From Cryobacterium sp. HLT2-28 (GTDB taxonomy: Bacteria > Actinomycetota > Actinomycetes > Actinomycetales > Microbacteriaceae), in the NCBI RefSeq assembly GCF_004402495.1, contig NZ_SOFH01000023.1, forward strand, positions 1 through 64,000: 64,000 bases of DNA. Reading direction: 5' to 3'. The notes beneath the pieces were generated by a model. It was not told the origin of the DNA. It saw nothing but the letters and a program-made list of their open reading frames with translations, and searched no databases. How positions within the stretch are numbered: the first letter of the stretch is position 1; every line of letters begins with the position of its first letter. Below are positions 5,845 to 25,444 of the stretch, one piece after another. Made by a program: the position numbers and the translations under genes.

Positions 5845-7293
5845 CTACTGGCTCTCGGTGCGGGTCCAGGTCGAGTCTTCAGGAGACGCGGCATCGGGTG
5901 CCCGCTCCCCGGCCGGCTCAACGGTCGCTGCCTTCGCGAGCCCCTGCCCGGCGACTGCACCGCCCACGAAACTGCCGAGCAGGTCGCGGATGCCGACCCC
6001 CATGGTGGAGGAGAGCATGGCGTCGACCTCGCTGAAACCCGCGGCCACGTTCTTGCTGAGTTGACTCGCGCCGTCGGTCGAGATGACGGTCAGGTTGTCG
6101 ATGTTGCTCATCGGCGCCGCGAGCTCGTGGGCGATTCGCGGCAGCATCTCCACCATTCGCAGCTGGATGAGCGCCTCCGACTGCTGGGCGACGGCCTCCG
6201 CACTGAGCCGGGTCGACTCGGCCTCGGCGGCACCGCGGGCGAGGATGGCGTCGGCGTTGGCCTGGCCCTCGGCCCGGATCGCTTCGGCAATGGACTTGCG
6301 GCTGTCCCGGTCGGCGTTCGCCGCGGTCACGGCCGCGTCGGCGGCCGCCACCGCGGTGACCCGGATGCGGTACGCCTCGGCATCCGCGACGGCGTTCACT
6401 TCGGATTCCAGCTCCGCCTTGCGCAGGCTCGCGCGGCGCTGGGCGGTGAGTTCCTGCTCCTGCACGATCGCCTGCTGGGTCTTGGCCTCGGCGAGCGGCC
6501 TGGCGCCGGCAGCCTCCGCCGCGGCCTTGTCGGTATCCAGCTGCAGGGCTGCGCGGCGCAGGGCGAGTGTGTTCTGCGCGACGGCGATGGCCTGTTCGGC
6601 GGCGATCGCAGCCTCCTGGGCCTCCCGGTTGGCCTGGTGTTCGGCGACCTCGGCCTGGCGGCGAACCTTGGCCTGCTCCGCGCGGCCCATGTCCTTGATG
6701 TAGTCGTTGGCGTCGCTGATGCCCTTGATCTCGAACGAGTCGACGTCCAGGCCCTGGTTGGCGAGCGATTCGCGGGCCGTGGCGAGCACCGACGCGCCGA
6801 GTTCGTCGCGCTTCTGGATGATCGTCATCACATCGGTCGCGCCGATGGAGGAACGCAGGGAGCCCGACAGGACCTCGAGGGCGAAGTTGTCGATGTTCTT
6901 GTCCTGGCCGAGGAAACGCTGGGCGGCCGCGCGGATGGCATCCGGGTCGTCGCCGACCTTGACGATGGCGACCGCTTCGACCGTGAGGGTGATTCCCATC
7001 TTGTCCTGGGCGATGGCCGTGATCTCGATGGCACGGCTGCGCAGGCTGATCTTGAAGGCCTTCTGGAAGAACGGGGTGATGAATACGCCCTGGCCGTGCA
7101 CGACCCGCTGCCCGGACTGCTCGAGGGTGGCGCCGTCGACGACGGTCTTCTTCGATTTCTTGCCCGTGATGATGAGAGCCTCATCCGGGCCGGCGTTCTT
7201 GTAGATCGACCGGGCGTACAGCAGCACGATCAGGAAGGCGAGGACCGCCAACAGGATGAGCCCGGGAATGGGGCTGAGCAGGAAATCGAACAT
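5845..7293 (-). CDS. Flotillin / SPFH domain protein
   Basis: A 482-residue membrane scaffold protein. It has one N-terminal hydrophobic segment (PIPGLILLAVLAFLIVLLYA), then an SPFH/PHB domain (about residues 30-200: ADEALIITGKK-type entry, HGQGVFITPFFQKAFKISL, then IGATDVMTIIQKRDELGASV). A long alanine/glutamate-rich coiled coil covers about residues 205-400, and there is a flotillin-type C-terminus. Such proteins oligomerise and organise membrane domains. Start ATG 7293 has GGAAGGA 7-8 bases upstream. It is followed by the DUF2071 gene with one base between them. Flotillin genes often pair with an NfeD protein; none is seen here. Confidence 0.9.
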   Translation of the reverse strand: MFDFLLSPIPGLILLAVLAFLIVLLYARSIYKNAGPDEALIITGKKSKKTVVDGATLEQSGQRVVHGQGVFITPFFQKAFKISLRSRAIEITAIAQDKMGITLTVEAVAIVKVGDDPDAIRAAAQRFLGQDKNIDNFALEVLSGSLRSSIGATDVMTIIQKRDELGASVLATARESLANQGLDVDSFEIKGISDANDYIKDMGRAEQAKVRRQAEVAEHQANREAQEAAIAAEQAIAVAQNTLALRRAALQLDTDKAAAEAAGARPLAEAKTQQAIVQEQELTAQRRASLRKAELESEVNAVADAEAYRIRVTAVAAADAAVTAANADRDSRKSIAEAIRAEGQANADAILARGAAEAESTRLSAEAVAQQSEALIQLRMVEMLPRIAHELAAPMSNIDNLTVISTDGASQLSKNVAAGFSEVDAMLSSTMGVGIRDLLGSFVGGAVAGQGLAKAATVEPAGERAPDAASPEDSTWTRTESQ

Positions 7294-7368
7294 TGGATCC
7301 TTCCGGCCCGCGATGGGCGCGGAGCTACGGGCACAGTCTGGCAGCCGAGAGGGCCGGACCGCGCGCAG

Positions 7369-7390
7369 GCTCGCGGTCACGCGCGCGAGC
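7369..7390 (-). terminator. Possible terminator hairpin after the protease gene
   Basis: A 7-bp perfect GC-rich stem (GCTCGCG / CGCGAGC) with an 8-base loop lies just downstream of the protease stop at 7399 and before the flotillin start. There is no U-run, so intrinsic termination is uncertain. Confidence 0.3.
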
Positions 7391-7398
7391 AGCCGTCG

Positions 7399-10300: not shown

Positions 10301-10428
10301 AGGATCGCCTGGACTTCCGGGGTCAGGCTGCCGGTTCTCGGAGTGGCGAGGTTTCGGGCCGACGCCGCCGGGGCGAGCCCGGCCAGAAACAGGGCGACCA
10401 TCACAGTCACGGCCAGGGTCTTCCTCAT
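7399..10428 (-). CDS. Secreted subtilisin-like protease (S8) with Ig-like and repeat domains
   Basis: A 1009-residue secreted serine protease. It has a signal peptide (residues 1-24, ending ASA), an inhibitor I9-like propeptide (~50-145), and an S8 catalytic domain with Asp182 (SLDSGVDITHP), His220 (SGHGTATTGV), Asn322 (FAAGN) and Ser395 (SGTSMAAPHATG). Next come a beta-sandwich region (~455-560) and two bacterial Ig-like units (~570-775) with EYFTDTLGADGAG and HAKDAAGNWG. Two ~115-residue repeats close the protein (~778-1009), carrying DDADIY and DEDVVY. The triad is intact. ATG 10428 overlaps the CopC-CopD stop (ATGA). It is the last gene of the copper block and may mature the other secreted proteins, which share its C-terminal repeats (inference). 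Confidence 0.9.
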   Translation of the reverse strand: MRKTLAVTVMVALFLAGLAPAASARNLATPRTGSLTPEVQAILDSLPPGDMTTVVVTLRDQADLKHVPGDRRAARLKGTILALKAKADASQVPIRTLLRARAVEGRVARSTPLWVVNGISVTATADVIQALAVRPDVSSITADQVVVVPSVGIPEPNVTKVSAPALWDLGFTGQDVVVASLDSGVDITHPDLAGRWRGGTDSWYDPYGEHPTTPTDLSGHGTATTGVIVAGDAGGTSIGMAPGARWIAAKIFNDRGAATATAIHQAFQWVLDPDHDPNTPDAPQIVNGSWSIGAGPGCDLSFQPDLQALRAAGILPVFAAGNYGSGGSTSVSPANYPEALAVGAVTGTDLIYSPSSRGPSACEARTRVFPDLVAPGVTIRTTDLYGMYQTSSGTSMAAPHATGALALLLGAIPGLSADQAQAALIGTALDLGLAGPDVAYGNGRLDVLSAYQWLKGQQDFGVTFTPAEASSIAGGSVTYTVQVTRAYGFSGDVSLSLSGLSAEQADWTFTPTVVPAGSGTSQLTVATSSAIPSGSHPLTITASNGTTSRTSTGILAITEPSVGDLIGPATTSPTLTPSPANGSADANLHAIGDDAATGGSNVAAAEYFTDTLGADGAGTAMTVAPPAPVASLDATIPAAIVSALADGSHTIFVHAKDAAGNWGSTATTTLLVDKIKPVVSLVSATPNPALGASTVSLTAQATDALTAVTRAEWFTGADPGLGNATPMAVSGTGPWGLSASPINVSSWNEGAYTLTVRVRDAAGNWSVNAGTVLQVRAPLFFSTFGNTNPSGVAGTADDADIYNWSGTAFSRAIDVSVPPYNLPGGANVDGFDRVDATHFYLSFSAANTTVPGLGAVQDEDVVFYDAGTWSVYFDGTARGLTAANQDLDAISIVGGALYFSTLGNTNPPGVAGVADDADIYSWNGTVFARFWDASADGLANGANVDGFVRVDATRFYLSFSADTTVPALGAVQDEDVVYFNNGVWSVYFDGTAHGLGASDNLEVDAFDLT
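7402..8094 (-). repeat. Two C-terminal ~115-residue repeats in the protease
   Basis: Two tandem copies of a module with the order FSTxGNTNPxGVAG, DDADIY, NVDGFxRVDATHFYLSF, TTVPxLGAVQDEDVV, WSVYFDGTA. Copies are also similar at DNA level to those in the genes at 12872 and 18632. The acidic DDAD and DEDV clusters suggest metal (perhaps calcium) binding, which is not shown. Confidence 0.85.
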
Positions 10429-12302
10429 GATCGGCTCCCTCTGTTGCCACGCAGTGCGAATTCCGGAATTAGTGATGTCGGCCGTACGGTCTCCGTCTTG
10501 CGGCGGAGGGTGAGGCCGACGGTGCCCAGCATCGCGGCGAGCAGCAGGACGGCCAAACCGGAGGTCACGATCTCCAGCGGGCGGGCACCATCAGAGCTCG
10601 CGGCGGAGACGGTCCATCCGACCTGCGTGACCGCGGCGGGGAGGCCGTCCCGTTGCAGGGCCACGGTGGCCTTCCAGGCGCCGGTAGCGGGTCTGGCTAT
10701 CTCTGCCTCGTAGCGTCCCGGCTCGATACCCTTGAGCAACACGTCGGTCGTCGTCCCGGACGGGGCGGCGAGGGTGACGGAGACCCCGTTGACGGGAGCC
10801 TGCTCCAGCTTGACGATCGAGCGCGCGCGGACGATCAGACGGCTCTGATCCGGTCCGGCGGGCAGCTGCTCGAAGGTGACGAAGAGTCCGTCGACGGTAG
10901 CGGTGTGGAGCACAGTCTGCCGTGTCGCCGTGGCGATCTCCCGAGCGGTGGGAACCGAGGTGAGCACGCTCGCCGCACCCACCGCTATGACCAGAACGAG
11001 GATCTCAGTCGCCACGACGATGGTGAATCGACGCAGCGACACCGGCGGCCACCCCACAGGCCTGCCCAGGAAACGGCCCACCCGAGCGGCCAGGCGGGGA
11101 TTGACGAGCAGCGTGTTGATCACCGCCAGGGTCAGCGCCACGGCGATCAGGGCCACTTTTCCGGCCACGGCGCCGCCGTAGACGGTCGAGGCCACGGAAC
11201 GCAGGTCGGGGATGTGGCGGCCCGCTTCGTAGAGCCCCGTTGCCAAGAGGACCACGGTTCCGATTGCGGCCATCGGGCTGAAGGCCCGCCAGGCAGAGGC
11301 GAGAATCCGACCGCGCAGGTCCGGGTGGTGGCGCATCACCGGGATCAGGCAGATGGCAAGAATGGTGAGGCCGCCGGCCCAGACTCCGGCGGCGACGAGG
11401 TGGGAAGCGGAGGCAAGGGCAGCCAGTGCGGATCGGCTGGGCAGGGTCGAAGCGTGGCCGGCCCACGCTTCCAGGCAAACTACTGCCGCCAGTGCGACGG
11501 CGGCGATCTGGACCCGCCCGCCGGCGCCGCCCGGACGAGTCGCCCGGACCAGCGCAGCCGCCGCGATCACGATCGCAATCTCTCGCGCAAGCCACAGGTG
11601 ACCCCAGGGAGTGCCCGTCAGGGTGGCCCAGGTGGCGTCGAACCAGAGCCCGAGGGAACTGCCGCCGCGCTGCGTGAGGAGAAACGGGGTGATCGCTCCG
11701 GTGACGACCGCGACGCATACAGCCAGCGCCCCGATGACAAGCGCGCGCCGACGCAGAGTGTTCCCGATCTCGCCCATCGAATCGAAGACCCGACCTGAGA
11801 CGGCCAGCGCGCCGATCGCGAGCATGATCGCCGACAGGTCCAACCAGCGGAGGATGAGTCCTGGAGGGTCCGGGGCATCTGCCGCTGCGGACGCGACCGC
11901 CCCGGGGCGAGTCCCGGCGCCGAACAGTAACGACCCGCTGGTCGAGTGACCGTCCTCGGTGGAGAAAACCTTCCAGTTCAGCAGATAGGTGGCCTTGGCA
12001 AGCGGTTGCGTTCCGATCCGGACGATGCCCCCGCCGTCCGTATCGGACACGGACGCTGTCACGTCCACCCGCACTCCGTTGGAAGTCTGGAGCTCGAAGG
12101 TGCTGGCGCTTTCGGCGATGGGTTCCGTGAACCAGAGGGTGAGGGCGGATCTACCGATGGCGACCACCCCGCCATTGGGAGGGTCGGAGCGCTCGAGCCC
12201 GCCGTGCGCCCAGGCCGGCGACGCCCCGAACAGGAGCACTACGAACGCGGCGAGCAGGATCGCAGTCACACGGCTCCCCACTCGGAGCCAGCCCCGGGTC
12301 AT
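10425..12302 (-). CDS. CopC-CopD fusion copper protein
   Basis: A 625-residue protein. The signal peptide ends at AWA, leaving His33 as the mature N-terminus (HGGLERSDPPNGG). With Asp117 and His119 (STEDGHSTSG) this reproduces the CopC Cu(II) site (His1, Asp, His). An eight-helix CopD domain follows (~150-450, with WAGHASTLPSRSALA and HLVAAGVWAGGL), then an extracellular YtkA-like domain (~460-580) and a last helix near 590-610. The known role of the family is periplasmic or surface copper binding and copper transfer across the membrane. Both gene ends overlap neighbours by 4 bases, so it is translationally coupled to the anchor protein and the protease. In this block it probably supplies or handles copper for the oxidases. 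Confidence 0.92.
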   Translation of the reverse strand: MTRGWLRVGSRVTAILLAAFVVLLFGASPAWAHGGLERSDPPNGGVVAIGRSALTLWFTEPIAESASTFELQTSNGVRVDVTASVSDTDGGGIVRIGTQPLAKATYLLNWKVFSTEDGHSTSGSLLFGAGTRPGAVASAAADAPDPPGLILRWLDLSAIMLAIGALAVSGRVFDSMGEIGNTLRRRALVIGALAVCVAVVTGAITPFLLTQRGGSSLGLWFDATWATLTGTPWGHLWLAREIAIVIAAAALVRATRPGGAGGRVQIAAVALAAVVCLEAWAGHASTLPSRSALAALASASHLVAAGVWAGGLTILAICLIPVMRHHPDLRGRILASAWRAFSPMAAIGTVVLLATGLYEAGRHIPDLRSVASTVYGGAVAGKVALIAVALTLAVINTLLVNPRLAARVGRFLGRPVGWPPVSLRRFTIVVATEILVLVIAVGAASVLTSVPTAREIATATRQTVLHTATVDGLFVTFEQLPAGPDQSRLIVRARSIVKLEQAPVNGVSVTLAAPSGTTTDVLLKGIEPGRYEAEIARPATGAWKATVALQRDGLPAAVTQVGWTVSAASSDGARPLEIVTSGLAVLLLAAMLGTVGLTLRRKTETVRPTSLIPEFALRGNRGSRS

Positions 12303-12871: not shown

Positions 12872-15841
12872 CTACGGGACATCGAACGCGTCCACGTCGA
12901 GGGTGTCGGCGGTGAGGCCGTGCGCGGTGCCGTCGAAGTAGACCGACCATCTGCCCGCGTTGTAGTAGACGACATCCTCATCCTGGACCGCACCCAGAAC
13001 CGGCACTGTCGTGTTGGTCGCACTGAACGACAGGTAGAAGTGGGTGGCATCGAGCCAGACGAATCCATCCACGTTGGCGGCGGCCGGCAGACTGTAGGGC
13101 GCGGCGCTGGCGTCGATCACCCGGCTATAGGCGGTTCCGTTCCAGCTGTAGATGTCGGCATCATCGGCGACGCCCGCCACTCCGGGCGGGTTGGTGTTGC
13201 CCAGCGTGGAGAAGTACAGGGTGGTACCCACGACGCTGATCGCATCGAGATCCTGGTTCGCTGCGGTCAGGCCGTTCGCGGTGCCGTCAAAGTACACCGA
13301 CCAGGTACCGGCGTCGTAGAACACGACGTCCTCATCCTGCACCGCGCCCAGGCCCGGCACGGTCGTGTTGGTCGCGCTGAATGACAGGTAGAACGAGGTG
13401 GGGCTGACCCGGTCGAAACCATCGACGTTGGCATTGCCCGGCAGGTTGTACGGCGGGACGCTGACGTCGATCACCCGGCTGAAGGCGGTGCCGCTCCAGT
13501 CGTAGATGTCCGCGTCATCGGCCGTGCCGAGCACGCCGGGCGGGTTGGTGTTCCCGAATGTCGAGAAGGACAGCGGCGCGCTCACCTGGAGCACGGTGGA
13601 GGCGTTCACGCTCCAGTTGCCGGCCGTGTCCCGCGCCCGCACCGTGAGCGTGTACGTGCCCTCGCTCCAACTACCGACGTCGATTGGGGTCGAGAGGGTC
13701 CATGGGCCGGTCCCGGTGGCCGTCATCGGTGTGGCTTTGCCGACGCCCGGGTCGGCACCGGTGAACCACTCGCCGCGGCTGACCGCCGTGAGGCCGTCAG
13801 TCGCCTGCGCCGTCAGGCTCACCGATCTGGCACCCTGGGTCGGGTTGGGAGTTGCGCTGACGAGACTGACCTCAGGCTTGATCTTGTCGATCAGCAGGGT
13901 CGTGCTTGCCGTCGTGCCCCAGTTGCCCGCCGCATCCTTGGCGTGGACGTAGATGGTGTGGTTACCGTTCGTGAGCTGGGCGATGGTGGCCAGTGGGATG
14001 TCGGCGTAGCCGGCCTCTTCAGGGCTGTTGTAGACACCGTCGGTGGCCCTGACGACGATGCCTGCGCCGTTTGCCCCGACCGTGTCGAGGAAGGCCTCGG
14101 CCGCGCTGATGTTGCTGTTGACCGTGGCCACGATCGCATCCGACATGCTGGCCACCGTCACCCGGACCGCCGGCGTGCCGCCGTTGACCGCCAGCGTGCC
14201 GTTGTTGGGAGTGGGCGCTGCCGAGACGCCGGACGTGGTGGGCGCGGTCCTGTCGATCACCAGATTGATGGTGGTCGGGGCGCCCCAGTTGCCCGCTGCG
14301 TCCTGACTGTGGATCGACACGAGATGGGTGCCCTCGGCCAGGGCGGTCACGGTCGAGGCGGGGATCGTGCCATCCAGGCTGGCGATGGGTGCGGCAACGT
14401 TGACCGCCAACGACGCTCCCGAACCATTGGCGCCGACGGCGTCGATGAAGTACTCGGCGGCGGTGATGTTCGAGCCGCCGGTTGCGGTGTCGTCCCCGGT
14501 GGCGTGAACTGCGATGCCCGCAGTACCCAAACCATTCGTGAGGCTCGGCGCCAGCGACGGCGACCGGGTGGTCGGGCCGGTGGCGTCGCCACCGGTGACC
14601 AGCACCGAGCTGAGGACCCCCCAGTTGCCGACGGAGTCCTGGCCCCGTAGATAGACGATGTGCTCACCGGACGGGATGATCAACGCAGCAGTGACACTCA
14701 CACTGCCGGTGCCACTGCCCGTCATCGGGGTGCCCGTGCCGACCACCGTGTCGATGAAGTACTCGGCCCCGGCGATACTGGCTCCGCCGGAGGTGGTGTC
14801 GTCGATCGTGGCGCTCAAGGTGCCGGCCACGTAGGCGACCGCGCTGGTGACCGGCCCGGTGGTGTCGGATCCGACAACGCCGGCCGGGACCGTGACGAAG
14901 GTGAGCATCCCACCGGTGCCGGCCGTGTTGCTGTTGTGCAGCAGCAGGCTGCCGTCGTAGATCGCCAGCCGGTTGATCTGGGCGATCGCGGACGGGGTGG
15001 TGACGATGGCATCCGCTGTCTGGCCCGGACCGAAGGTCTCGGCGACGTAGCGACGTGAGAAGTTCAGCGGGCTGCCGTCCAGGGCGATGATCCTCTGTTC
15101 CGCGCCCAGCGATGCCACTGAGTGGTACTGATTGCCGGCATTGACGTAACGCAGAAGCACCTTGTTGCCCGGGGCCGTCGCGGCGATGGGGTCGGTGTTC
15201 GGGTGGGCCTTCCCGTTGATCAGGGAGTACCGGGGGGCGTACTTGCGCATGTCGTAGGTCGCCGGGTTCGCGGAGTTGTTGAGAGCCGGGTCGATCTCGC
15301 TGAGCACCAGGACGGCCTCGTCGTCATAGGCGGTGGTCGTCGCATCGTAGGCCTGGTTTGCCGTCGCCGGACGCACGATCAGGGCGCCGTAGAGGCCCAT
15401 CGCCACCTGGTGCTGGCCGTTGGGAACGAGACCCGCCTCGTAGAGGTAGGTGCCGGGCCGGCTGGCCGTGAATGTGTACGGCGTGGTTGTGCCGGGCGCC
15501 GCGCCGGTTCGGTCGGGGATCATCTGCTGCCCTTGGAAGAGCAGGGCCGTGTTCTCGGCCAGCTGGTTGTGCAGCGTGATCGTGACCGTGTCGCCGGCGG
15601 TGACACACAGCGTCGGCCCGCCGGGGCGGGTCACGCCGGCAACCGTCGTGCTGTAGCCCCAGACGTTTACGGTCTGGGCGCCGAGGGTCGTGGATCCCGA
15701 GACCGCGTACAAGTCGCCGGGTGCCGTGCAGTCCACCGTCGCGGCCTGTGCGGCCGTGGCCGGCACGACGAGGGCCACCAGCACGGCCAGCCCTCCGCCG
15801 GCCAACAGCCCCGTCAAAATGGAGGAGGCTACCTTCTTCAT
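12872..15841 (-). CDS. Cupredoxin-like protein without copper ligands, with Ig-like and repeat domains
   Basis: A 989-residue secreted protein. It has a signal peptide (1-35, MKKVASS start, ending AQA) and two cupredoxin-like domains (~45-320) clearly parallel to the neighbour at 15880 (GPTLCVTAGDTVTITLHNQL; GTYLYEAG; MGLYGALIVRP; SEIDP; GPGQTADAIV). Where that neighbour has HPH and HNH, this protein has QYHSVASLG (His240) and LLHNSNT (His302), so the His-X-His pairs are gone. Several Ig-like units follow (~330-750: AEYFIDT, DAAGNWG), and two ~115-residue repeats (~756-989). ATG 15841 is preferred over 15859 because AGGA lies 5 bases upstream and the signal peptide then starts with MKK. It is probably a structural paralogue, not an active oxidase. 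Confidence 0.85.
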   Translation of the reverse strand: MKKVASSILTGLLAGGGLAVLVALVVPATAAQAATVDCTAPGDLYAVSGSTTLGAQTVNVWGYSTTVAGVTRPGGPTLCVTAGDTVTITLHNQLAENTALLFQGQQMIPDRTGAAPGTTTPYTFTASRPGTYLYEAGLVPNGQHQVAMGLYGALIVRPATANQAYDATTTAYDDEAVLVLSEIDPALNNSANPATYDMRKYAPRYSLINGKAHPNTDPIAATAPGNKVLLRYVNAGNQYHSVASLGAEQRIIALDGSPLNFSRRYVAETFGPGQTADAIVTTPSAIAQINRLAIYDGSLLLHNSNTAGTGGMLTFVTVPAGVVGSDTTGPVTSAVAYVAGTLSATIDDTTSGGASIAGAEYFIDTVVGTGTPMTGSGTGSVSVTAALIIPSGEHIVYLRGQDSVGNWGVLSSVLVTGGDATGPTTRSPSLAPSLTNGLGTAGIAVHATGDDTATGGSNITAAEYFIDAVGANGSGASLAVNVAAPIASLDGTIPASTVTALAEGTHLVSIHSQDAAGNWGAPTTINLVIDRTAPTTSGVSAAPTPNNGTLAVNGGTPAVRVTVASMSDAIVATVNSNISAAEAFLDTVGANGAGIVVRATDGVYNSPEEAGYADIPLATIAQLTNGNHTIYVHAKDAAGNWGTTASTTLLIDKIKPEVSLVSATPNPTQGARSVSLTAQATDGLTAVSRGEWFTGADPGVGKATPMTATGTGPWTLSTPIDVGSWSEGTYTLTVRARDTAGNWSVNASTVLQVSAPLSFSTFGNTNPPGVLGTADDADIYDWSGTAFSRVIDVSVPPYNLPGNANVDGFDRVSPTSFYLSFSATNTTVPGLGAVQDEDVVFYDAGTWSVYFDGTANGLTAANQDLDAISVVGTTLYFSTLGNTNPPGVAGVADDADIYSWNGTAYSRVIDASAAPYSLPAAANVDGFVWLDATHFYLSFSATNTTVPVLGAVQDEDVVYYNAGRWSVYFDGTAHGLTADTLDVDAFDVP
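12875..13573 (-). repeat. Two C-terminal ~115-residue repeats in the cupredoxin-like protein
   Basis: Two tandem copies of the FSTxGNTNPPG - DDADIY - DATHFYLSFSATNTTVP - DEDVV - WSVYFDGTA module, ending in LDVDAFDVP. The protease and the giant protein end almost the same way (VDAFDLT, VDAFDLPTP). Confidence 0.85.
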
Positions 15842-15879
15842 GCTCGTCCTGGGAATCATGGCTCTCTACGCCTTCCGGG

Positions 15880-17244
15880 TCAGCCGCAGTTGTTGGGCGT
15901 CGGTGGATCGATCCGCATATAGGTGATCGGTCCGGTCATATTCGTGCCCCACGACGTGATCTGGAACAGGGCGTGGTTGTGGGAGATGATGTAGTACTCC
16001 CCGCACTGGTTCACGCTCTGAATGCCAGGCGGCAGGGCTTCCTTGGTGCCGAGGTAGGGACTTCCGCTGTAGAAGACGCCGATCTCCTCGTTGGCCAACT
16101 GAGGCACCGTCACCGGAACCGGGTTGGACGGGGAGTAATTCTCGGCGTCGTACCACTTGAAGATCACGTCCCAGGTTTGACCTGGTCCGATGTTGATGGC
16201 GAACTTCTCGAAGGAGAGGTCCTCCCCCGCCGGACCCTCCAGGGCACGGCCATCTCGAGCTACGACGAGGCCGTTGTTACCGTGCGGGTGGAACGGGAAG
16301 TCCTCGGTGCCCACGTTCAGGTAGCGAGCCATCCCCGGCTGGTCCGCCGGGACTGCCGCCCGGTCAAACTCACCCACTTTTGCGAGGGCCCCATAGGGCT
16401 GCGTGGGCAGCCAGCTCGCACCGTTGTCGGCGATGCTGTCGGGGAAGCCTCGCCCATTGATCAGCCAATAGCGTGGGTGGTAGGTGTTCATGTTGAAGCT
16501 CTTGTTGTTTTCGACGGCCTGATGCTGGTACGGGTCGATCTCGCTCAGGAGAACCATGAACTCCTCGGCGGGGTTGAACCGGCTGTCTGCCCGGTTGTTG
16601 GCGTATTCGCTCGCGATCGAGCCAGCTGCTGCGCCAGCCGGCACGGCCGACGGGCGCACGATCAGAGCCCCGAACAGTCCCATCCGGACCTGTTTCTCGG
16701 GGTTGGTGCCAGACTCGTACAGGTATGTGCCCGGGTCGCCGGCCACGAAGCTGTAGGTGGCGGTCCCGCCTCCGGCCGCGGCCGTGTTGGTCAGCGACGT
16801 GGTCGCGCCGGCCCCGCTGAGCTCGGGTTGGGCTGGGGTCCCGTTGGCGAGAACGTTTACCTGGCCCGGGAAGACGATCGAGGCGGCCTCGGGCAGGGTG
16901 TTGCGCAGGATCACGGTGACCGTATCGCCGGCGTTGACACAGAGAACGGGGCCGGGGTGCTGGAAAGAGCCGAATCCGCTGGAGTACCCCCACATGAACG
17001 CCGTGTTGCCGTCGGGCAGGCTGATGTATCCGGTCTTGGTGGTCAGGTTGAAGATCGGAGTGGTGGCACCTCCCCCGACCCCGGTGGTGCAGGCGATGCC
17101 GACCCGCGACGGAGTCTCGGCGGTCGCCGCCGGGACGAATGTGGTCATCGTCGCGCCGACCAGGGCCAGAGCGACCAGCAGAGTCGGCCGGCGCAGGCGC
17201 CGGTTGCGGGCCTTCCCAAGCATCACGGCGTCACCTCTCATCAT
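15880..17244 (-). CDS. Multicopper oxidase subunit-like protein B (HPH and HNH motifs)
   Basis: A 454-residue secreted cupredoxin protein with a basic N-terminus, a signal helix (LLVALALVGATMTTFVPAATA) and two or more cupredoxin domains. The copper motifs seen are FPFHPHGNNG (His319, His321) and IISHNHALFQITSWG (His422, His424). The usual type-1 signature (HCH...H...M) is absent. The first domain has GPVLCVNAGDTVTVILRNTL and FPGQ where active enzymes have HxHG. Its two His-X-His pairs complement the HWH and HCH pairs of the preceding gene, so the two may form one trinuclear centre together. ATG 17244 was chosen; GTG 17253 overlaps the upstream stop and is an alternative. Tight linkage suggests joint translation. 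Confidence 0.85.
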   Translation of the reverse strand: MMRGDAVMLGKARNRRLRRPTLLVALALVGATMTTFVPAATAETPSRVGIACTTGVGGGATTPIFNLTTKTGYISLPDGNTAFMWGYSSGFGSFQHPGPVLCVNAGDTVTVILRNTLPEAASIVFPGQVNVLANGTPAQPELSGAGATTSLTNTAAAGGGTATYSFVAGDPGTYLYESGTNPEKQVRMGLFGALIVRPSAVPAGAAAGSIASEYANNRADSRFNPAEEFMVLLSEIDPYQHQAVENNKSFNMNTYHPRYWLINGRGFPDSIADNGASWLPTQPYGALAKVGEFDRAAVPADQPGMARYLNVGTEDFPFHPHGNNGLVVARDGRALEGPAGEDLSFEKFAINIGPGQTWDVIFKWYDAENYSPSNPVPVTVPQLANEEIGVFYSGSPYLGTKEALPPGIQSVNQCGEYYIISHNHALFQITSWGTNMTGPITYMRIDPPTPNNCG

Positions 17245-17249
17245 GGCTC

Positions 17250-18584
17250 TCACACTCCCAAGTCGTTCGGATAGGCCTGCGCAGGCACGCCACCCGCCGC
17301 ATACACTCGAACCTCTGTGGCCTGGCCGCCGAACCCGCCCGGCGCCAGGTTGTTCGCCCGCAGGTAATTGCGGTTGTAGAGCATGTACGTGTCGTACCCC
17401 GGACCGGTGTGCCCCGGCGCGGTGAAGACCACGTCGAAGCTCTCGCCCGGGCCGATGTTGATCGTCTCGGTTTCGTAGGACGTGTCGGTGCCGTCGCGCC
17501 CGCGCATCGGGGTGGCGTCACGGCCGACCACGCGCATTCGGATCCCCGCCAGGGTCATCGCCTGTTCCCGGAATCCGAGGTTGGCAAACCGCAGCGCGAC
17601 CGTCTCGCCTGCGTTGCAGTTCACCAGCGAAGACTGCGGCTGGTACTGCAGCTCGGGGTGCCCGACGGGGGCGACCAGGTCGCCGGTCACGGGGTCGGTC
17701 TCCACGGCAAGACGGTGGGTGGATGCCGCGGCATTGATCGGCGCGTTGGGAGCGACGGTGTCCGGGTAGACCCTGCCGTTGAGCAGGCTGAAGTCGGCCC
17801 GGTAGTCGCTCCACTCCGGCAGCTGGATGTGAGCGTCCGCCCAGTGCGCCTCGGCCCACACCTCCGAGAGGAACATCGCAAACTCGCGCTCGAAGCCGGT
17901 CGAGCCGTCACCGTCGTTGTAGAGGAACTTTGTGTGTCCGGCGAGGGTCTGGCCGTCCTGCAGGGGGCGGACGAAGACCAGCCCGGTCATGCCCATCTGG
18001 ACGTGCTCGACGTCCTCCACGTGGCAGTGGAACATGTAGGTCCCTGGCTCGCGGGGACGGTACACGTAGGTGAAGATTCGTCCGGTTCGCACCGCCACCG
18101 AACCGCTCGGTTCGCCGTCGAAGAACGGGATCACGTTGCGGAACCCGTGCCAGTGGAGGGTGTGGGCGTCGAACAGGTCGGGCCGCAGCGCCAGGCCCAG
18201 GTTGGTCAGTTGCACCTTGAAGTCGACCGGGTGGGCCGGGTCGAACTGGTTGGCCCAGAACAGCGGAGCGGAGTGCTGGGCCTTGTTCTGCTGGTTCGAC
18301 AGCTGAATGTCGGTCAGACCGGTGACTTCGCGGAACCCGAAGATGTAGGTCGTGAGTAGACCCGGGGCCAGAACGTCGGGGTGGAATGGCGGGATGGCCG
18401 GGGTCTTCGGTAGGTAGATCCAGCCGTCGGTCCCGGCCAGGTAGAGGTCGGGATCCCCGAGGGCCGCAATGGCGGCTTCGGGCATGAGCACGTTGCCCGC
18501 CCAGATGCCGGTGCCGACGACGGCCACCGCGCCGCCGGCGAACTTCAAGAGGTCTCGGCGGCTGAAAGGCTGCTTAAAGATCAT
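17250..18584 (-). CDS. Multicopper oxidase subunit-like protein A (HWH and HCH motifs), Tat-exported
   Basis: A 444-residue cupredoxin protein with a twin-arginine signal (FSRRDLLKFAGGAVAVVGTG). Copper motifs: HTLHWHG (His141, His144, His146) and MFHCHVEDVEHVQMGM (His186, Cys187, His188, His194, Met199), that is a type-1 site plus half of a trinuclear centre. The second half has cupredoxin-like strands (GETVALRFANLGF, NIGPGESFDVVF) but no second set of His-X-His pairs. In complete multicopper oxidases four such pairs are needed; the other two are in the next gene. Tat export fits folding with copper in the cytoplasm. ATG 18584 has AGGGAG about 8 bases upstream. An in-frame ATG at 18635 overlaps the giant gene's stop but has no ribosome-binding site. 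Confidence 0.88.
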   Translation of the reverse strand: MIFKQPFSRRDLLKFAGGAVAVVGTGIWAGNVLMPEAAIAALGDPDLYLAGTDGWIYLPKTPAIPPFHPDVLAPGLLTTYIFGFREVTGLTDIQLSNQQNKAQHSAPLFWANQFDPAHPVDFKVQLTNLGLALRPDLFDAHTLHWHGFRNVIPFFDGEPSGSVAVRTGRIFTYVYRPREPGTYMFHCHVEDVEHVQMGMTGLVFVRPLQDGQTLAGHTKFLYNDGDGSTGFEREFAMFLSEVWAEAHWADAHIQLPEWSDYRADFSLLNGRVYPDTVAPNAPINAAASTHRLAVETDPVTGDLVAPVGHPELQYQPQSSLVNCNAGETVALRFANLGFREQAMTLAGIRMRVVGRDATPMRGRDGTDTSYETETINIGPGESFDVVFTAPGHTGPGYDTYMLYNRNYLRANNLAPGGFGGQATEVRVYAAGGVPAQAYPNDLGV

Positions 18585-18631
18585 TCCCGTATCTCCCTGG
18601 GGATCGTCTGTAGCGCGGCTGGATGAATGGG

Positions 18632-21600
18632 TCATGGGGTCGGAAGGTCGAAGGCGTCAACGTTCAGGCTCCCGGTGGCACCGAGACCGTGTGCGGTGCC
18701 GTCGAAGTAGACCGACCAGGTGCCCGCGTTGTAGTAGATGACGTCCTCATCGTGGACCGAGCCCAGTACCGGCACCGTGGTGTTCGCGTTGCTGAATGAC
18801 AGGTAGAAATGGGTGGCATCTATCCGCACGAATCCATCCACGTTGGCGGTGCCCGGCAGGCTGTAGGGCGCGGCGCTGGCATCGATCACCCTGCTGTAGG
18901 CGGAGCCGTTCCAGCTGTAGATGTCGGCATCGTCGGCGGCACCTCCCACTCCGGGCGGGTTGCTGTTGCCCAGAGTGGAGAAGTACAGGGTTGTCCCCAC
19001 GACGCTGATCGCGTCGAGGTCCAGGTTGTCATTGCCGCCCAGACCGTGCGCGCTGCCGTCGAAGAACAGCGACCAGGAGGTGCCGTTGAAGTACACGACG
19101 TCCTCGTCCCGCACGTTCCCCAGACCGGGCACGTTCACCAGGGCGGTGAAGGAGAGATAGAAGTGGGTGTCGTCAACCCGGTCGTAGCCGTCGACGTTGG
19201 CGGTGGCCGGCAGACCGTAGGGCGCAGTGGTCATAGCGTTCACCCGGCTGAAGGTGCCGCCGTTCCAGAGGTAGACGTCCGCGTCGTCCGCCGTACCACC
19301 GACACCGGGCGGGTTGGTGTTGCCCTGGGTCGATAAGTACAGGTCCTGGCCGGCCGGCGGCGGCAGGGGCGGCAGGGCCCCGCTGGCGAACGCGATCGCG
19401 TCCAGATCCTGGGCGGCCGACGTGAGGCCGTGGCTGCCACCGTTGAAATAGAGTGACCAGGACGTGCCGTCGAAGTAGACCACGTCCTCGTCGTTCACGG
19501 CGCCCAGACCGGGGACGGTAGTGGTCGTGTTGCTGAACGACAGGTAGAAGTGCTTTGCGTCGCGCCAGATGAGACCGTCGACGTTGGGGTTGGTCGCTCC
19601 GGTGGCCGACCCGCTGTTCGGCAGGTTGTACGGCGCCGCCGTGGCGTCCAGGACTCGGGTGTAGGAGCTGCCGCCATCCCAGCGGTAGACGTCGGCGTTG
19701 TCGCCGTAACCCCCTGCACCCGGAGGTACCGCATCGTTGCCGGTGGAGAAGAACAGCGTGTTACCGACGACGCTGACAGCGCCCAGGTCGATGTTGCCGC
19801 CGACCCCGTGCGCGCTGCCGTCGAACCACAACGACCACGCGGTGCCGTTGAAGTACACGACGTCCTCGTCGGCCACCGCGCCGATCCCCGGCAAGGTGAC
19901 GTTCCCGGTGAACGAGGCGTAGAAATGGGTGGCGTCGACTCGGGAGAAGCCGTCCGTGTTGGCAGCGCCCGGCACGTTGTAGGGCGCGGCGGTGACATCG
20001 ATCGACCGGCTGAAGGCGGTGCCGTTCCAGAGGTAGATGTCGGCGTCGTCGGCAGTTCCGGCTACGCCGGGCGGGTTGGTGTTTCCTGCTGTCGAGAAGT
20101 ACAGGTCCGAGGATGGCGGTGGTGGCGTTACGGCACCGAACTCGTCAGCACCGCTGTCGAAGCCACCCAGCGCCGGCCGGGCCTGGTTGTCGAAGTCCGT
20201 TGCCGGCGCGTTCACTCCGCCCCTGCTGGCCGCGCCGAGGTTGCAGGCGGGTGAGCCGGGGCAGTTGGCCAGGTGGTAGTTGCCGAGCAGGTTCGGCGGC
20301 GCTTCCAGGGTCACGAGCGTGGCGTCCACGAACGCCGGGTTCTGACGCCAGGTGGCGAAGGAGACCGAGACGTCGTAGGTCGAGACCACTGCCGGATCGG
20401 TGGAGCTGTTGGTCGGACTGGTCGTGAATGGGTGAGAAGCGGTGTTCTGTTGTACGACCGAGTTGCTCGGCGCGAGCACGCCCGTGCCGTCGGCCACGCC
20501 CAGATCCCAGTTGTTGATGTCGGTGGCACCGGCCAGGCCGATTCCGGTGACGGTGGTGCCGGCCCGGGTGCCGGCCCGGTTGTCCCAGAGAATGTTGTTG
20601 AACATCAGCGGGTTGCTGAAGGTCGGCGAGCCGCCCGGCAGGGTCGCCTGCAGCTGGTCGCTGTTAGCCGAGGTTGACAACCCGGCGGGGGCGGGCTGGC
20701 CGTTCGAGGTCACCGCGGTGGCCGTCGACAGGTTCTTCATGATCGTGTTGTTGAAGACCCGCACGTTGGGGGCGTCATTGATGCCGATGCCGCCGCCCTC
20801 GTGCGTCGACACGTTGTTGACGATCATGTTGTTGTAGACATTCATCGGGTAGTCGCCGGCCATCAGGAAGCGGATGCCGCCACCGTCGTCATTGGCCATG
20901 TTGGCCTGGATCTGGTTGGCATAGATGTCCACCGGACCGGAGCCGGGCGAGAGCGCGCCGACCGTCGCCGGCAGCTGGCCCGCGATCATGATGGCGCCGC
21001 CCTCATCGTTGGAAGAGTTGAAGTACATGCGGTTGTGGTGGATCTTGCCGCCCGGGCTCAAGCCGTAGGCGCTCAGCCCGCCGCCGTACTCCAGCGAGAA
21101 GTTGCCGCAGATGTCGTTGGCAGCCACCTCGTAGCCGTCCGAGCCCGCGTAGAGACCGATGCCGCCGGCCAGGTTGGTGCCGGCGTTGGCGATTATCCGG
21201 TTGTTGGCGATCCGGACGTTCTCGTTGTGTTGGCTGGTGTTCGGCGCGGCCAGGTCAGGGGTGCCGATGCGGATTGTCCCGTAGCCGCCTCCATTGTTGT
21301 CGACAACGTTGTTGGTGATCTGCAGGAATCGGGCGTAGGCGTTGGCAAAGATCGCTCCGCCCTGGGTGGTGATGTTCGGCGGAAGGCCGGTCGGCCCACC
21401 GGTGAGACCGTCGACGTTGCCCGGGAAGCCCACCTGATCGCCGCCGCGGATGTCGAAGCCGTCGATGGAGGCCTTGAAGCCGCTGGTGAACTGGCGCGCG
21501 GCCCCCGACGCGGTGGTGGCGTTCTCCGAGGCCAGTACGTAGATGGCCTCGCCGTCGTTTACGGCCTGGTTGCCGTCCCAGGTGAGGCCGCCGACCTTGG

Positions 21601-24600
21601 TGAACCAGGCCGCGGCCAGGGCAGTGTCACCGCCGAACGCGCCGGCGTCAATGATTGATCCCGGCACGAAAGCCGTGCCCTGGAAGCCACCGGAGCCGAC
21701 GCCCTGAAGCTTGACCGGCGAAGCGACGACCAGGTTCTCGTAGTAGGCGCCCCGGGGGTTGGCCGTGGTGGAGGGTGCCGGGTAGACGACCACCAGATCG
21801 TCGCCGTTGTTGGTGAACGCGGCGTCGAGCGCGGCTTGGATCGTGGCGTAGGAGCGGCCCGGGCCGACCTCACGCAGGGCAGGATCGTACCCGGTCCCCA
21901 GCACATGGAAGGTGAGCCCGTTGACCGTGCTCTGCCCGTTGTCGGCCATGATCCCCAGCTGGTGCGCCCCAACCGGGACCGCGCCAGGCACAGTGGCCGA
22001 GATCGAGGTGTCGCTCCAGGCGGTGATATCCAGGGGCGTGTTGCCGAGAGTGACCTGACCGGTGCCCCTGTTGGCGCCGAAGCCGGTCCCGGCGATCGTG
22101 AACGAGCGGGTTCCGTTCGCGGCCACGTAGGGCTTCGAGACGGAAAACAGCTGTGGCGTGGCACCGTCGAGGGTGCAGGCGACCGCCGTGTTGACCCCGG
22201 TGGTCGGCGACCCGACATAGACACCGACCTGGGTCGGAGCAAGGTCAGTGGGGATGGTCACGCCTGGTAGGGCCTCGAACTCGGTCGCAATGGAGCGATA
22301 CCGCGGGTTGTAGTTTGCGTTCAGACGCCCAGGGATCCCCGGGTCGTTGCCCACGAAGCGGTACATGTTGGCGCAGACACCCGAGGGGGTGGGGCAGCTG
22401 ATGTGATTGGTGGAGGGAAGCAGGACATCGTACGAGCCGTTGAAGTCGGACTCGACGGTCGTGACCAGCCGGTTGGCGAAGTCATAGATGCCGACCGGCG
22501 CGAAGGCCACGCCGGTCTTCTCCCCGTAGAGCGTCGAGCGCGAGTCGGTGGAGAAGTTGATGTCGTCCACGATCAGGCCGCGAAGGCGGGACGGGATCGG
22601 CACTGCGGTGAAGATATTGAACATGGGCACGACCGATTTGCCGTTGTTCACTCGCACCAGCTTGGTGTCACAGGACGGCTTGGCTGAGCCTTCGTAGGGC
22701 GACCCACCGATGTCGAGGAAGGTGGCGTTGGCGACCGGAGTCGAGGCCGGCACGGTGACCCCGGTGGGGGCGCCGTTGGTATCGTTGCCGACCAATGCGG
22801 GGTAGTTGTCCGCTGCGGCACCAAGAAGGTCAACGGTGTGAAGCGTTCCGGCACAGGACGGCGGCGGCACCTGAGGGACGATCTGGTCGCCGTTGCCGAT
22901 GTTGATGTCCTCTTCCCCGGTCACCTTGTACATAGGGTTCCCGGTGGCGTCTTTCGGGATCGCGACCCTGACCAGGTAGTCCCCGCTCGTCAGGGGCTCG
23001 AAGGTTCCACCGTTGCAGACGGGAGCGGACGGATCCGTGGCGACGAGTGTGCCGGTACAGGCGTCACCGAAGCCGTAGTTGCCGTCCACGGCCGCACCGA
23101 AGTTGGCGGCGGCTGTGCCCTGGTCGGTCGGGTAGGGCCCGAATTGCACGCCCTGCATGAAGCTCGAGATGCACTCTCCGTCTGTCTCCTGATTGGGCAC
23201 GAGCACGTTCTCGTCGTAGGCCGCGGGGTTGTCTTTGGCGTGGACGAGCGGGTTGCCGTCCACGTCGCGAGCCACGCACCCGGTCGGGCGGCTCCAGTGT
23301 TCCGAGAGGTAGGTGTTCAGCAGTTTGCCCTTGGCCAGGGAACCGTCTGATGCCAGCTCGTACGCGTCGTTGGTGCCACCACACGGCGTGTTCGCGTTCG
23401 TACCGCAGTCGACCGTGGCGTACAGCTCTACGGGCACATCGGAGACGCCCGGCTGCCAGTCCTCGGAGGCGGCGTACTGCGGGTCGAGCTCGTTGCGGGT
23501 CGTGTCGTAGCTCACCGAGCCGACGATGCCGCCGTTGCGAGGGTCGATGCCGTTGGCACCGGTCGGATCGTAGGTGTGAACGCCCCAGTCCATCCGGCCG
23601 CTGAGCCCGATGATGCTGAGCACGCTGACGTCGACACCGGCACCCTTGACCGTGGTCGGGGTCGGCTGGTTGTCGGCCTGGTAGGTGACCCCGGTGGTGT
23701 AGAAGGAGTCCTTGTAGTTCTCCATCACGGTCCACTCACTGAGCGGGTACGCGCTCTCGAAGTGGTAGTAGCCCGTGCTGTCGCTGGTGACGACGTTCGT
23801 GCCCCGGTCCATCAAAGAGTTGTCCTGCTTGCGCATGGTCAGGGTGAAGTTGGGCAGGCCGCTCTCGCCGGGGTCCCTGACCCCGTTGCGGTTGGTGTCG
23901 TTGAAGACGTACCCGTCGTATTCGGTCCACCAGCCGCTGATCGGCACGTTGCCCATCTGCACCGTCTGGCCGCCGCTTACGGTCACGTTGACCAGGTTGA
24001 GGAAGTAGTTCTGCGGCTCGTCCCACCAGCTCAGGCTGTAGTTGCCGTCGGGCACGCCGGAGATGTCGAAGGCGCCGTTCGCGTCGCCCTGCCCCACCCA
24101 TACGGCCTGGTCACCATTCTGCAGGTCGGCGAGGGAGAGCCATGGCCTGACGATAGGCTTGCCCATCTTGCTCCCGGTCATCCCCAGCCAGTAGTTGAAA
24201 TCGCCGCCCTTGGGCGGGGTGTACTGCTTTGCGGTGACGACCACGCCCGTGATGCGCCCGGCGGCACCGGCGGCCAGGGTGTTCGTGGGCGGAACGAAAC
24301 CGAAGATCGGCCCGGGGACAGGCTCGCCGGCCACCAGTGCCTCGGTGTCGTAACCGGTGCTGCCTTCCATGAGCCAGGTGTCAAAGTCGTGGTTGCCTTC
24401 CAGCGTCGTCGTCTGGATCCAGATCTGCCCGTCGGGGGGCGTAGCGGTCAGCACGTAACGGTTACTGCCCAGGTGCGGCATGGTCAAAAGGCCATCGGCG
24501 TCGCTGACACAGCGGCCCCCTGTCCCGGCAATCGGCACTGGGGACATAGTCGCGTCCAGGCTGGCCAGAGGGATCAGATGCGTGTCCGGATTCTCGCCAA

Positions 24601-25312
24601 CATAGACGGTGCACAGGGGGTTGCCGTAGACGTCGGTCTGCAGTTCGCCCAGGGTGTCGGCGACGTGTCCGACGAAGCCGGCCAGGCCGGGCTCACCCTG
24701 ATCGTTGGCTCCGTTGGTCGGCGCGGTGTCCCGGAAGATGAAGGCCCGCAGTGTCGAGTCGGGCAGGGGGTTGGGCTGGAGCTCGACGGTGACCAGACCC
24801 GTAGCCGGCAGAGGCACGCTGAAGTGCGCCCCGTCGATCTTGTAACCGTCGGCGAGCACGGAGATCAGGTAACGCCCGTCCGGCAGGGTGAGACCGCCCA
24901 CGAAGTCGGCCTGGTCGCCCTGGCGCACGATCGGGCTCGTGGTGTGCGGCACCTCCTTGATCGACGGCCAGTCGCAGCTGGCCGGATACAAGGGGTCGGT
25001 TGCCGCGCAGCCGCTGTCGGGCGCCGGGCTCCGCTGGGCGGTCGTCCCGGTGTTGTCCTCGTTGATGATGTAAGTGAAGTTCGGGATGTCGTCGCCCTTG
25101 ACGACGCCAGTACCCGCGAACGCGCGGGGTTCCGTGCGCGCGCTGATCACGTTGAGCGACAGGTCGCTCGTCGTCGCAGCCTGGGCCGGCAGTGCGGGCA
25201 GGGCGACGAGCATCGCAACCGGCATGGCCAGGGCAGTGGCGGCGTTCACAATGCGCTGCCAGAGAGGCCGCTTCGGCGGTTTGACCCCGGTCGAGTGCTT
25301 CATCGCTTCCAT
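18632..25312 (-). CDS. Giant secreted beta-helix surface protein with SdrD-B, IPT and repeat domains
   Basis: A 2226-residue exported protein. It has a signal peptide (~1-45, ending PAQA) and carboxypeptidase-regulatory/SdrD B-like domains in the first ~900 residues, for example YVFNDTNRNGVRDPGESGLP (~480) and DANGAFDISGVPDGNYSLSW. An IPT/TIG domain follows (~1050-1140: FTIAGTGFGANRGTGQVTLG), then a right-handed parallel beta-helix (~1150-1700: YATIQAALDAA, then many NNxIxxN-type rungs). Four ~115-130-residue repeats run from ~1737 to the end. No sortase motif is seen. ATG 25312 has a perfect GGAGG 5 bases upstream, which decides the start over upstream Mets. First gene of the copper block; likely its surface scaffold (inference). 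Confidence 0.88.
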   Translation of the reverse strand: MEAMKHSTGVKPPKRPLWQRIVNAATALAMPVAMLVALPALPAQAATTSDLSLNVISARTEPRAFAGTGVVKGDDIPNFTYIINEDNTGTTAQRSPAPDSGCAATDPLYPASCDWPSIKEVPHTTSPIVRQGDQADFVGGLTLPDGRYLISVLADGYKIDGAHFSVPLPATGLVTVELQPNPLPDSTLRAFIFRDTAPTNGANDQGEPGLAGFVGHVADTLGELQTDVYGNPLCTVYVGENPDTHLIPLASLDATMSPVPIAGTGGRCVSDADGLLTMPHLGSNRYVLTATPPDGQIWIQTTTLEGNHDFDTWLMEGSTGYDTEALVAGEPVPGPIFGFVPPTNTLAAGAAGRITGVVVTAKQYTPPKGGDFNYWLGMTGSKMGKPIVRPWLSLADLQNGDQAVWVGQGDANGAFDISGVPDGNYSLSWWDEPQNYFLNLVNVTVSGGQTVQMGNVPISGWWTEYDGYVFNDTNRNGVRDPGESGLPNFTLTMRKQDNSLMDRGTNVVTSDSTGYYHFESAYPLSEWTVMENYKDSFYTTGVTYQADNQPTPTTVKGAGVDVSVLSIIGLSGRMDWGVHTYDPTGANGIDPRNGGIVGSVSYDTTRNELDPQYAASEDWQPGVSDVPVELYATVDCGTNANTPCGGTNDAYELASDGSLAKGKLLNTYLSEHWSRPTGCVARDVDGNPLVHAKDNPAAYDENVLVPNQETDGECISSFMQGVQFGPYPTDQGTAAANFGAAVDGNYGFGDACTGTLVATDPSAPVCNGGTFEPLTSGDYLVRVAIPKDATGNPMYKVTGEEDINIGNGDQIVPQVPPPSCAGTLHTVDLLGAAADNYPALVGNDTNGAPTGVTVPASTPVANATFLDIGGSPYEGSAKPSCDTKLVRVNNGKSVVPMFNIFTAVPIPSRLRGLIVDDINFSTDSRSTLYGEKTGVAFAPVGIYDFANRLVTTVESDFNGSYDVLLPSTNHISCPTPSGVCANMYRFVGNDPGIPGRLNANYNPRYRSIATEFEALPGVTIPTDLAPTQVGVYVGSPTTGVNTAVACTLDGATPQLFSVSKPYVAANGTRSFTIAGTGFGANRGTGQVTLGNTPLDITAWSDTSISATVPGAVPVGAHQLGIMADNGQSTVNGLTFHVLGTGYDPALREVGPGRSYATIQAALDAAFTNNGDDLVVVYPAPSTTANPRGAYYENLVVASPVKLQGVGSGGFQGTAFVPGSIIDAGAFGGDTALAAAWFTKVGGLTWDGNQAVNDGEAIYVLASENATTASGAARQFTSGFKASIDGFDIRGGDQVGFPGNVDGLTGGPTGLPPNITTQGGAIFANAYARFLQITNNVVDNNGGGYGTIRIGTPDLAAPNTSQHNENVRIANNRIIANAGTNLAGGIGLYAGSDGYEVAANDICGNFSLEYGGGLSAYGLSPGGKIHHNRMYFNSSNDEGGAIMIAGQLPATVGALSPGSGPVDIYANQIQANMANDDGGGIRFLMAGDYPMNVYNNMIVNNVSTHEGGGIGINDAPNVRVFNNTIMKNLSTATAVTSNGQPAPAGLSTSANSDQLQATLPGGSPTFSNPLMFNNILWDNRAGTRAGTTVTGIGLAGATDINNWDLGVADGTGVLAPSNSVVQQNTASHPFTTSPTNSSTDPAVVSTYDVSVSFATWRQNPAFVDATLVTLEAPPNLLGNYHLANCPGSPACNLGAASRGGVNAPATDFDNQARPALGGFDSGADEFGAVTPPPPSSDLYFSTAGNTNPPGVAGTADDADIYLWNGTAFSRSIDVTAAPYNVPGAANTDGFSRVDATHFYASFTGNVTLPGIGAVADEDVVYFNGTAWSLWFDGSAHGVGGNIDLGAVSVVGNTLFFSTGNDAVPPGAGGYGDNADVYRWDGGSSYTRVLDATAAPYNLPNSGSATGATNPNVDGLIWRDAKHFYLSFSNTTTTVPGLGAVNDEDVVYFDGTSWSLYFNGGSHGLTSAAQDLDAIAFASGALPPLPPPAGQDLYLSTQGNTNPPGVGGTADDADVYLWNGGTFSRVNAMTTAPYGLPATANVDGYDRVDDTHFYLSFTALVNVPGLGNVRDEDVVYFNGTSWSLFFDGSAHGLGGNDNLDLDAISVVGTTLYFSTLGNSNPPGVGGAADDADIYSWNGSAYSRVIDASAAPYSLPGTANVDGFVRIDATHFYLSFSNANTTVPVLGSVHDEDVIYYNAGTWSVYFDGTAHGLGATGSLNVDAFDLPTP
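18635..20104 (-). repeat. Four C-terminal repeats in the giant protein
   Basis: Four tandem copies of the module also found in the protease and the cupredoxin-like protein. Copies 1, 3 and 4 keep FSTxGNxNPPG and DDAD(I/V)Y. Copy 2 is more divergent (GDNADVYRW, with an insertion near NSGSATGATNPNVDG). A proline-rich linker (LPPLPPPAG) separates copies 2 and 3. All keep DEDV(V/I)Y and W-S-(V/L)-(Y/F/W)-F. Confidence 0.85.
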
Positions 25313-25390
25313 GCTGACCTCCATTGTCTGGACGTCTCCATGGTGATCGGCAGCGACCGGTTGGCTAAGCCCCGGGTGAGGGATGCTCAT

Positions 25391-25408
25391 CTCCCCAAAA
25401 TTGGGGAG
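25391..25408. promoter_or_regulatory. Operator-like palindrome ahead of the copper block
   Basis: CTCCCCAA-AA-TTGGGGAG is a perfect 8-bp inverted repeat with a 2-base spacer, about 80 bases upstream of the first gene of the seven-gene block and just downstream of a weak promoter-like pair. It would suit a dimeric regulator, but I do not recognise the motif. Confidence 0.45.
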
Positions 25409-25444
25409 GCCTCCTCCCGCATACGGCGTCGGTGGGCCGGGCAC

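Follow-up and report, generated by a model that had tools for sequence, protein, structure and literature searches.

Two-domain multicopper oxidases bind their trinuclear copper centre with residues of two protomers, domain 1 of a protomer contributing together with domain 2 of its neighbour in the case described; type B enzymes exist as homotrimers, and type C is defined by a type-1 site in the N-terminal domain (PMC13151041). Six-domain oxidases (ceruloplasmin, hephaestin, MnxG) consist of three two-domain units and have at most one trinuclear centre, the other sites being lost, and in the bacterial six-domain oxidases domain 2 carries the type-1 site and the centre is placed between it and domain 3 (PMC3600357). 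Within the literature covered, which is mostly without subscription papers and includes PMC12509749, PMC3578206, and PMC8218464, no multicopper oxidase was found whose cluster is split between different gene products.

Gene run around the oxidase-like genes

The locus analyzed here lies in a window of 64,000 nucleotides from Cryobacterium sp. HLT2-28, whereby "window" means the whole stretch of DNA that was analyzed. The original prediction named two adjacent oxidase-like genes, which we term A and B, and both open reading frames (ORFs) are found where it had put them on the minus strand, overlapping by 4 bp (Table 1). They belong to a longer minus-strand run with the gene order D, A, B, C, 170-aa protein, CopC-CopD fusion, and subtilase, in which four of the six junctions are 4-bp overlaps and the remaining two are gaps of 20 and 60 bp. 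Taking A and B as the system was right with respect to the pair but incomplete, since protein D and the ligand-free paralogue C had been overlooked. The same genome contains another long ORF with a Cu-oxidase_3 match (6881-9574, minus strand, of stretch L043 from contig C30 of G000).

Table 1. Genes of the minus-strand run, with positions in the window.
Feature	Position	Strand	Remarks
Subtilase with Ig-like domain	7399-10428	-	last gene of the run
CopC-CopD fusion	10425..12302	-	copper handling
Small protein, 170 aa	12299..12811	-	no Pfam match; apparently membrane-anchored
Subunit C	12872..15859	-	third paralogue, directly after B
Subunit B	15880..17253	-	start at 17253, or ATG at 17244
Subunit A	17250..18635	-	start at 18635, or ATG at 18584; two cupredoxin domains, domain 1 with type-1 Cu, HTLHWHG, and HCHVEDVEHVQMGM, domain 2 ligand-free
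Protein D	18632..25444	-	2270 aa; SdrD_B and TIG over cut-off; surface-type

Copper ligands, folds, and signals of the subunits

Domain 1 of A carries HTLHWHG and FHCHVEDVEHVQMGM, which provide two His-X-His (HxH) pairs plus the type-1 ligands His/Cys/His/Met. In the profile alignment these motifs line up with the same motifs of 3g5w (Nitrosomonas europaea) and 2zwn (metagenome), two type-C two-domain oxidases. Solved chains of this class are the best matches of the A, B, and C profiles (3g5w for each) as well as of the A and B models. Relative to 3g5w, the A profile keeps the domain-1 motifs HTIHWHG and HCH...EH..M and has lost HAIHTHGH of domain 2. Subunit B holds the pairs FPFHPHG (FHPHGN) and ISHNHAL (SHNHAL), both in domain 2, and is without a Cys-His-Met site. 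Its domain 1 aligns at the ligand positions of 3g5w with the ligands there replaced; compared with 3g5w and 2zwn, both domain-1 motifs are lost and the first domain-2 pair is kept. The second, HNH-type pair falls on HDH of 2zwn in an alignment piece that scores -1.0, and the sequence match of this domain to solved chains is weak (about 12 bits). In subunit C, residues of about 40-330 form a two-cupredoxin unit without copper ligands, which is followed by Ig-like and other repeats. The first 330 residues match Cu-oxidase_3 (1.7e-11), and the C profile has its best solved match in 3g5w over both domains, with all ligand motifs lost.

The AF2 model of A (mean pLDDT 83.7) aligns to 3g5w_A with a Z of 24.8 and an rmsd of 3.1 over 271 residues, and that of B (mean pLDDT 76.9, with residues 381-416 under 50) to 2zwn_A with a Z of 28.7 and an rmsd of 2.9 over 279 residues. 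A and B thus resemble type C over about 270-280 residues, which is nearly the whole of the solved chains, and have their HxH pairs at the same positions, with the type-1 site in domain 1 of A only. The difference is that the known type-C enzymes carry all ligands in one gene product, whereas here no product holds four HxH pairs: A has two in domain 1, B two in domain 2, and C none. The two proteins had been taken for complementary halves of one oxidase; they are indeed complementary but not half chains, as each of them is a two-domain unit. Three other readings were rejected. A complete oxidase formed by A or by B alone would be without half of the ligands, B as a pseudogene does not fit its conserved HxH pairs, and a single frameshifted gene does not agree with two-domain units that each have their own start.

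In common with the six-domain oxidases, the locus offers six cupredoxin domains from three two-domain units, with at most one trinuclear centre and the other sites lost; unlike those single chains, it comprises three chains, and the type-1 site is in domain 1 of A. Within 88 loci compared (see below), no ORF reached more than 200 bits with any two of the three subunit profiles, as a six-domain single chain would. A further likeness is that to the Mnx complex (MnxE/F/G), reportedly a Mn(II) oxidase, which is also a multi-subunit multicopper oxidase assembly. There, however, the full centre is in MnxG by itself, MnxE/F being small subunits of a different type, whereas A and B would divide theirs. 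In copper nitrite reductases, a type-2 copper lies between the subunits instead of a trinuclear centre. The folds of A and B match nitrite reductases nearly as well as oxidases, and the eight cluster-type His are kept as in oxidases.

With regard to export, a Tat signal had been proposed for A and a Sec-like one for B. A has the motif SRRDLLKF, for which TIGR01409 is over its cut-off and the Pfam model TAT_signal (E 0.00038) is below its own, and B has a Sec-like start as judged by eye. A loose motif search found a twin-arginine motif in 82 of 85 A rows of the alignment versus 5 of 88 B and 8 of 84 C rows, whereby two of the three A rows without the motif are truncated. This distribution suggests that, in these loci, A would cross the membrane in folded form and B and C before folding, with the centre being completed outside. 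The motif is absent from most betaproteobacterial and several gammaproteobacterial A proteins in the further stretches described below, so such a division of export would not be universal.

Conservation, co-occurrence, and relatives

The comparison covers 88 loci (the window, L030-L036, and L047-L126), of which 86 are distinct, as L033 and L124 are from the same contig and so are L034 and L092; L034-L036 are pieces of one draft genome (G061). The scan of species genomes with the B alignment kept the best 80 of 140 relatives and yielded Actinomycetota, Chloroflexota, Methylobacter-like, and Oxalobacteraceae records. Since the 80 database loci were found by patterns of B domain 1, the absence of His in this domain is partly selected there; A, C, and domain 2 of B are outside these patterns. 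The order A-B-C is present in 81 of the 88 loci, that is, C is adjacent in every locus free of a contig-end cut, and the other seven are cut by a contig end. In L035, B is split into two ORFs. A single-chain A-B or A-B-C fusion was not met in the 88 loci, fusions of D with A and of C with D being found elsewhere.

The type-1 site together with two HxH pairs is complete in 82 of 85 A rows, and the individual ligand columns have the ligand in 83 or 84 of them. The three remaining rows are a truncated one (L065), one with Leu in place of the type-1 Met (L107), and a degenerate one (L125). According to the alignment columns, the four domain-2 His of B are present in 87, 86, 86, and 86 of 88 rows, with gaps in the other rows apart from a D in L125. 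What had been claimed for both proteins, a type-1 site with two pairs in A and HPH plus HNH without a type-1 site in B, is therefore borne out by the solved homologues as well as by conservation, and columns that are so nearly invariant argue against a chance pattern. Some A and B rows contain extra HxH stretches off the ligand columns. C is without any HxH in 82 of 84 rows (exceptions L089 and L121). Wherever the gene is present, the same A/B/C ligand pattern recurs in 23 further stretches, among them Cupriavidus metallidurans CH34 and Paraburkholderia, whereby this set includes repeats (L167 equals L081, L169 equals L071) and overlaps (L239/L248 and L240/L249). In the degenerate locus L125, A retains Cys, Met, and one His but has lost both type-1 His, three of the four cluster His, and the Tat motif; among all B rows, that of L125 alone has a motif-3 His replaced (by D). 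If the site is shared, both proteins should lose ligands together, as is the case here, in a single event.

A and B were searched separately over the same four samples, 983 genomes in total, whereby the thresholds for having A or B were placed after gaps in the scores were visible. Strong matches to A occurred in 26 genomes and to B in the identical 26, a number that includes the sample centres (the window's genome, G298, G299, and G297). In the window's class, 6 of 296 genomes have A, and the same six have B (A up to 5.5e-180, B up to 3.7e-98; next B match at 7.7e-15, with 9 further genomes that have ordinary oxidase ORFs). The phylum of G298 (Thermoflexus, Chloroflexota) gave 7 of 251 genomes, again the same for both (per genome, A up to 8.1e-176 and B up to 8.0e-174), followed by G544 (4.0e-46 and 1.1e-46), G485, and, for B, G365. 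For the order of G299, the Oxalobacteraceae genome of L058, both were found in the same 6 of 250 genomes (A up to 2.3e-45, B up to 6.9e-58; next 2.9e-19 and 4.6e-25), with uncounted weaker matches in 12 further genomes for A and 50 for B. The order of G297 (Methylobacter tundripaludum), with matches listed to 1e-30, had both in the same 7 of 186 genomes (A up to 1.8e-94, B up to 5.9e-68). The weaker matches that were inspected are other oxidases. A strong homologue of only one of the two genes was thus not seen among the 983 genomes, except for an ORF of G867 (1.4e-37, the next B match in the last sample), which was set aside as a fragment: it is B-like (L259, 5436-6524, plus strand), comprises a ligand-free domain 1 only, with no second domain seen beside it, and is perhaps the remnant of a lost cluster. 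A plasmid search at 1e-20 matched A in 8 records and B in only 2. On reading, B and C were found beside A in each of the six records other than L174 and L175, with the same ligand pattern, so that A, B, and C are together in all 8 records matching A. Viral contigs scanned with B gave one pattern match and no relative.

Several relatives lie outside this family. The 374-aa chain encoded by G544 combines all four HxH pairs with a type-1 site in its domain 1, and the A and B profiles match it about equally. In G485, a single 815-aa chain (L152, 31-2475, minus strand) joins an A-like and then a B-like unit, of which the A-like unit has an intact domain 1 and a degenerate domain 2 and the B-like unit the reverse. 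A plastocyanin-type domain apparently follows the two units of this chain. A second pair of adjacent genes of about 340 aa each, here called a2 and b2, was found in L226, L227, L228, L229, and L233 (G786, G756, G685, G672, and G803, respectively). The a2 protein has a type-1 site and two pairs in domain 1, and b2 has two pairs in domain 2; there is no C beside the pair, and the neighbouring gene resembles, by eye, one for a heavy-metal efflux adaptor. Within the family of G786, a2 and b2 occur in the same 4 of 10 genomes. As b2 starts with a Tat-like motif and a2 has no visible signal peptide in its frame, a2 would be expected to cross the membrane with b2, which suggests Tat hitchhiking of a cuproenzyme subunit.

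In the phylogenetic tree, A, B, and C each fall on one side of a branch (100/99, 98/95, and 99/96, respectively) and together on one side of another (97/96), on whose other side are a2, b2, the G485 units, G544, and ordinary two-domain oxidases. C groups with B (100/99, with the midpoint root that was used for drawing), and a2 and b2 are on long branches (1.9 and 1.7). Because the A-B-C branch is apart from a2/b2 and the G485 units, the division of ligands probably arose more than once, that is, likely at least twice.

A putative heteromeric oxidase and its alternatives

The sequence data make it highly probable that A and B share one trinuclear cluster. That the centre forms between the two proteins, as the original prediction had it, agrees with the complementary loss of ligands, the known inter-subunit site, the co-occurrence in 26 of 26 genomes, the joint loss in L125, and the fusion in G485. 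The position of the A-B interface we infer from homology: with ligands retained in domain 1 of A and domain 2 of B, a ring has exactly one complete interface, and the other two have none. Since C is adjacent in all uncut loci, the likely unit is A:B:C rather than two halves. It is probable that the paralogous two-domain proteins A, B, and C are subunits of one heteromeric oxidase, most likely an A:B:C trimer with one active centre, while for a 1:1:1 ring as such we have only a mild preference. Such a ring would have the geometry of the type-C two-domain trimer. Electrons would be taken up by the type-1 copper of A domain 1 and pass via the Cys-His link of A to the trinuclear cluster, half of whose eight His would come from domain 1 of A and half from domain 2 of B, and there O2 would be reduced to water. 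With ligand-free B/C and C/A interfaces, there would be one active centre per trimer, and C would be structural. If A is exported by Tat and B and C by Sec, the cluster could form only outside the membrane. The substrate may be, as a guess, a reduced metal such as Cu(I), Mn(II), or Fe(II).

It could also be that A and B form separate homotrimers, as type B two-domain oxidases do (PMC13151041), with A being a type-1 electron carrier with leftover His pairs and B a copper-binding or storage protein. A usually having its own Tat motif, which B and C do not have, would fit this idea. We consider it improbable, because the interface of an A or a B homotrimer would give four of the eight cluster ligands, yet these are kept across phyla, and because A and B are strictly linked in the genomes and have both lost ligands in L125. 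Still less credible is a decayed oxidase that is retained for surface structure and no longer uses copper. Although most of the A ligands and one of the B ligands are gone from L125, the other rows keep theirs, save the truncated ones and the Met-to-Leu exchange of L107, the Tat motif of A persists, and CopCD relatives are near 41 loci, so that we regard this reading as very remote.

The role of C is less clear-cut. An A-B centre might be formed in a heterodimer or in A3B3, with C as a surface anchor and not a ring member, since the a2/b2 pair without C indicates that a third unit is not always needed and C, with its long repeats or its fusion to D, may be a separate scaffold. Against this, C has its own two-cupredoxin unit, is placed with B by the tree, occurs in the 81 uncut loci, and has lost exactly the ligands that a one-centre trimer does not need. 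We thus regard C as an anchor only as doubtful and retain the A:B:C trimer as the preferred reading.

Taken further, it seems reasonably likely that a symmetric trimeric oxidase turned into an asymmetric heteromer with a cluster from two gene products, probably at least twice. One case would be D-A-B-C, which occurs in Actinomycetota, Chloroflexota, and Pseudomonadota and would correspond to ceruloplasmin with three chains in place of one, A being exported after folding and B and C before it. The other would be a2/b2, with a2 riding Tat together with b2. If true, the shared cluster would show how a symmetric oligomer can specialise into subunits and provide a present-day parallel to the three-unit ancestor that has been proposed for ceruloplasmin-type proteins, and genomes with what look like two or three partial or inactive oxidases would hold one working enzyme. 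It would also raise the question of how copper is loaded into a site that exists only once two exported proteins meet.

Regarding copper supply, 54 loci have a relative of the 170-aa protein after C and in the same orientation, and 41 have a CopCD relative, almost always in the orientation of C; both counts include the window, and besides it the sequence extends beyond C by more than 1 kb in 71 loci and by more than 3 kb in 67. This recurrence near C points to copper supply, whereby copper would plausibly be provided via CopCD and the 170-aa protein is a candidate copper chaperone or assembly factor. Protein D, probably a secreted surface protein, was detected in 80 of the 88 loci. Seven of the eight loci without D have no upstream sequence, and the remaining one (L118) has about 2 kb of it. 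Relatives of D form fusions with A in L260 and with C in L174, L175, L224, and L225, which ties the four proteins together and supports one surface assembly, in which D would act as the surface tether of the enzyme. The C-termini of C and D (12872-13500 and 18632-20100 of the window, minus strand) contain the same long repeat, NTNPPGV..ADDADIY..DEDVVYYN..SVYFDGTAHGL, which is perhaps a shared surface module.
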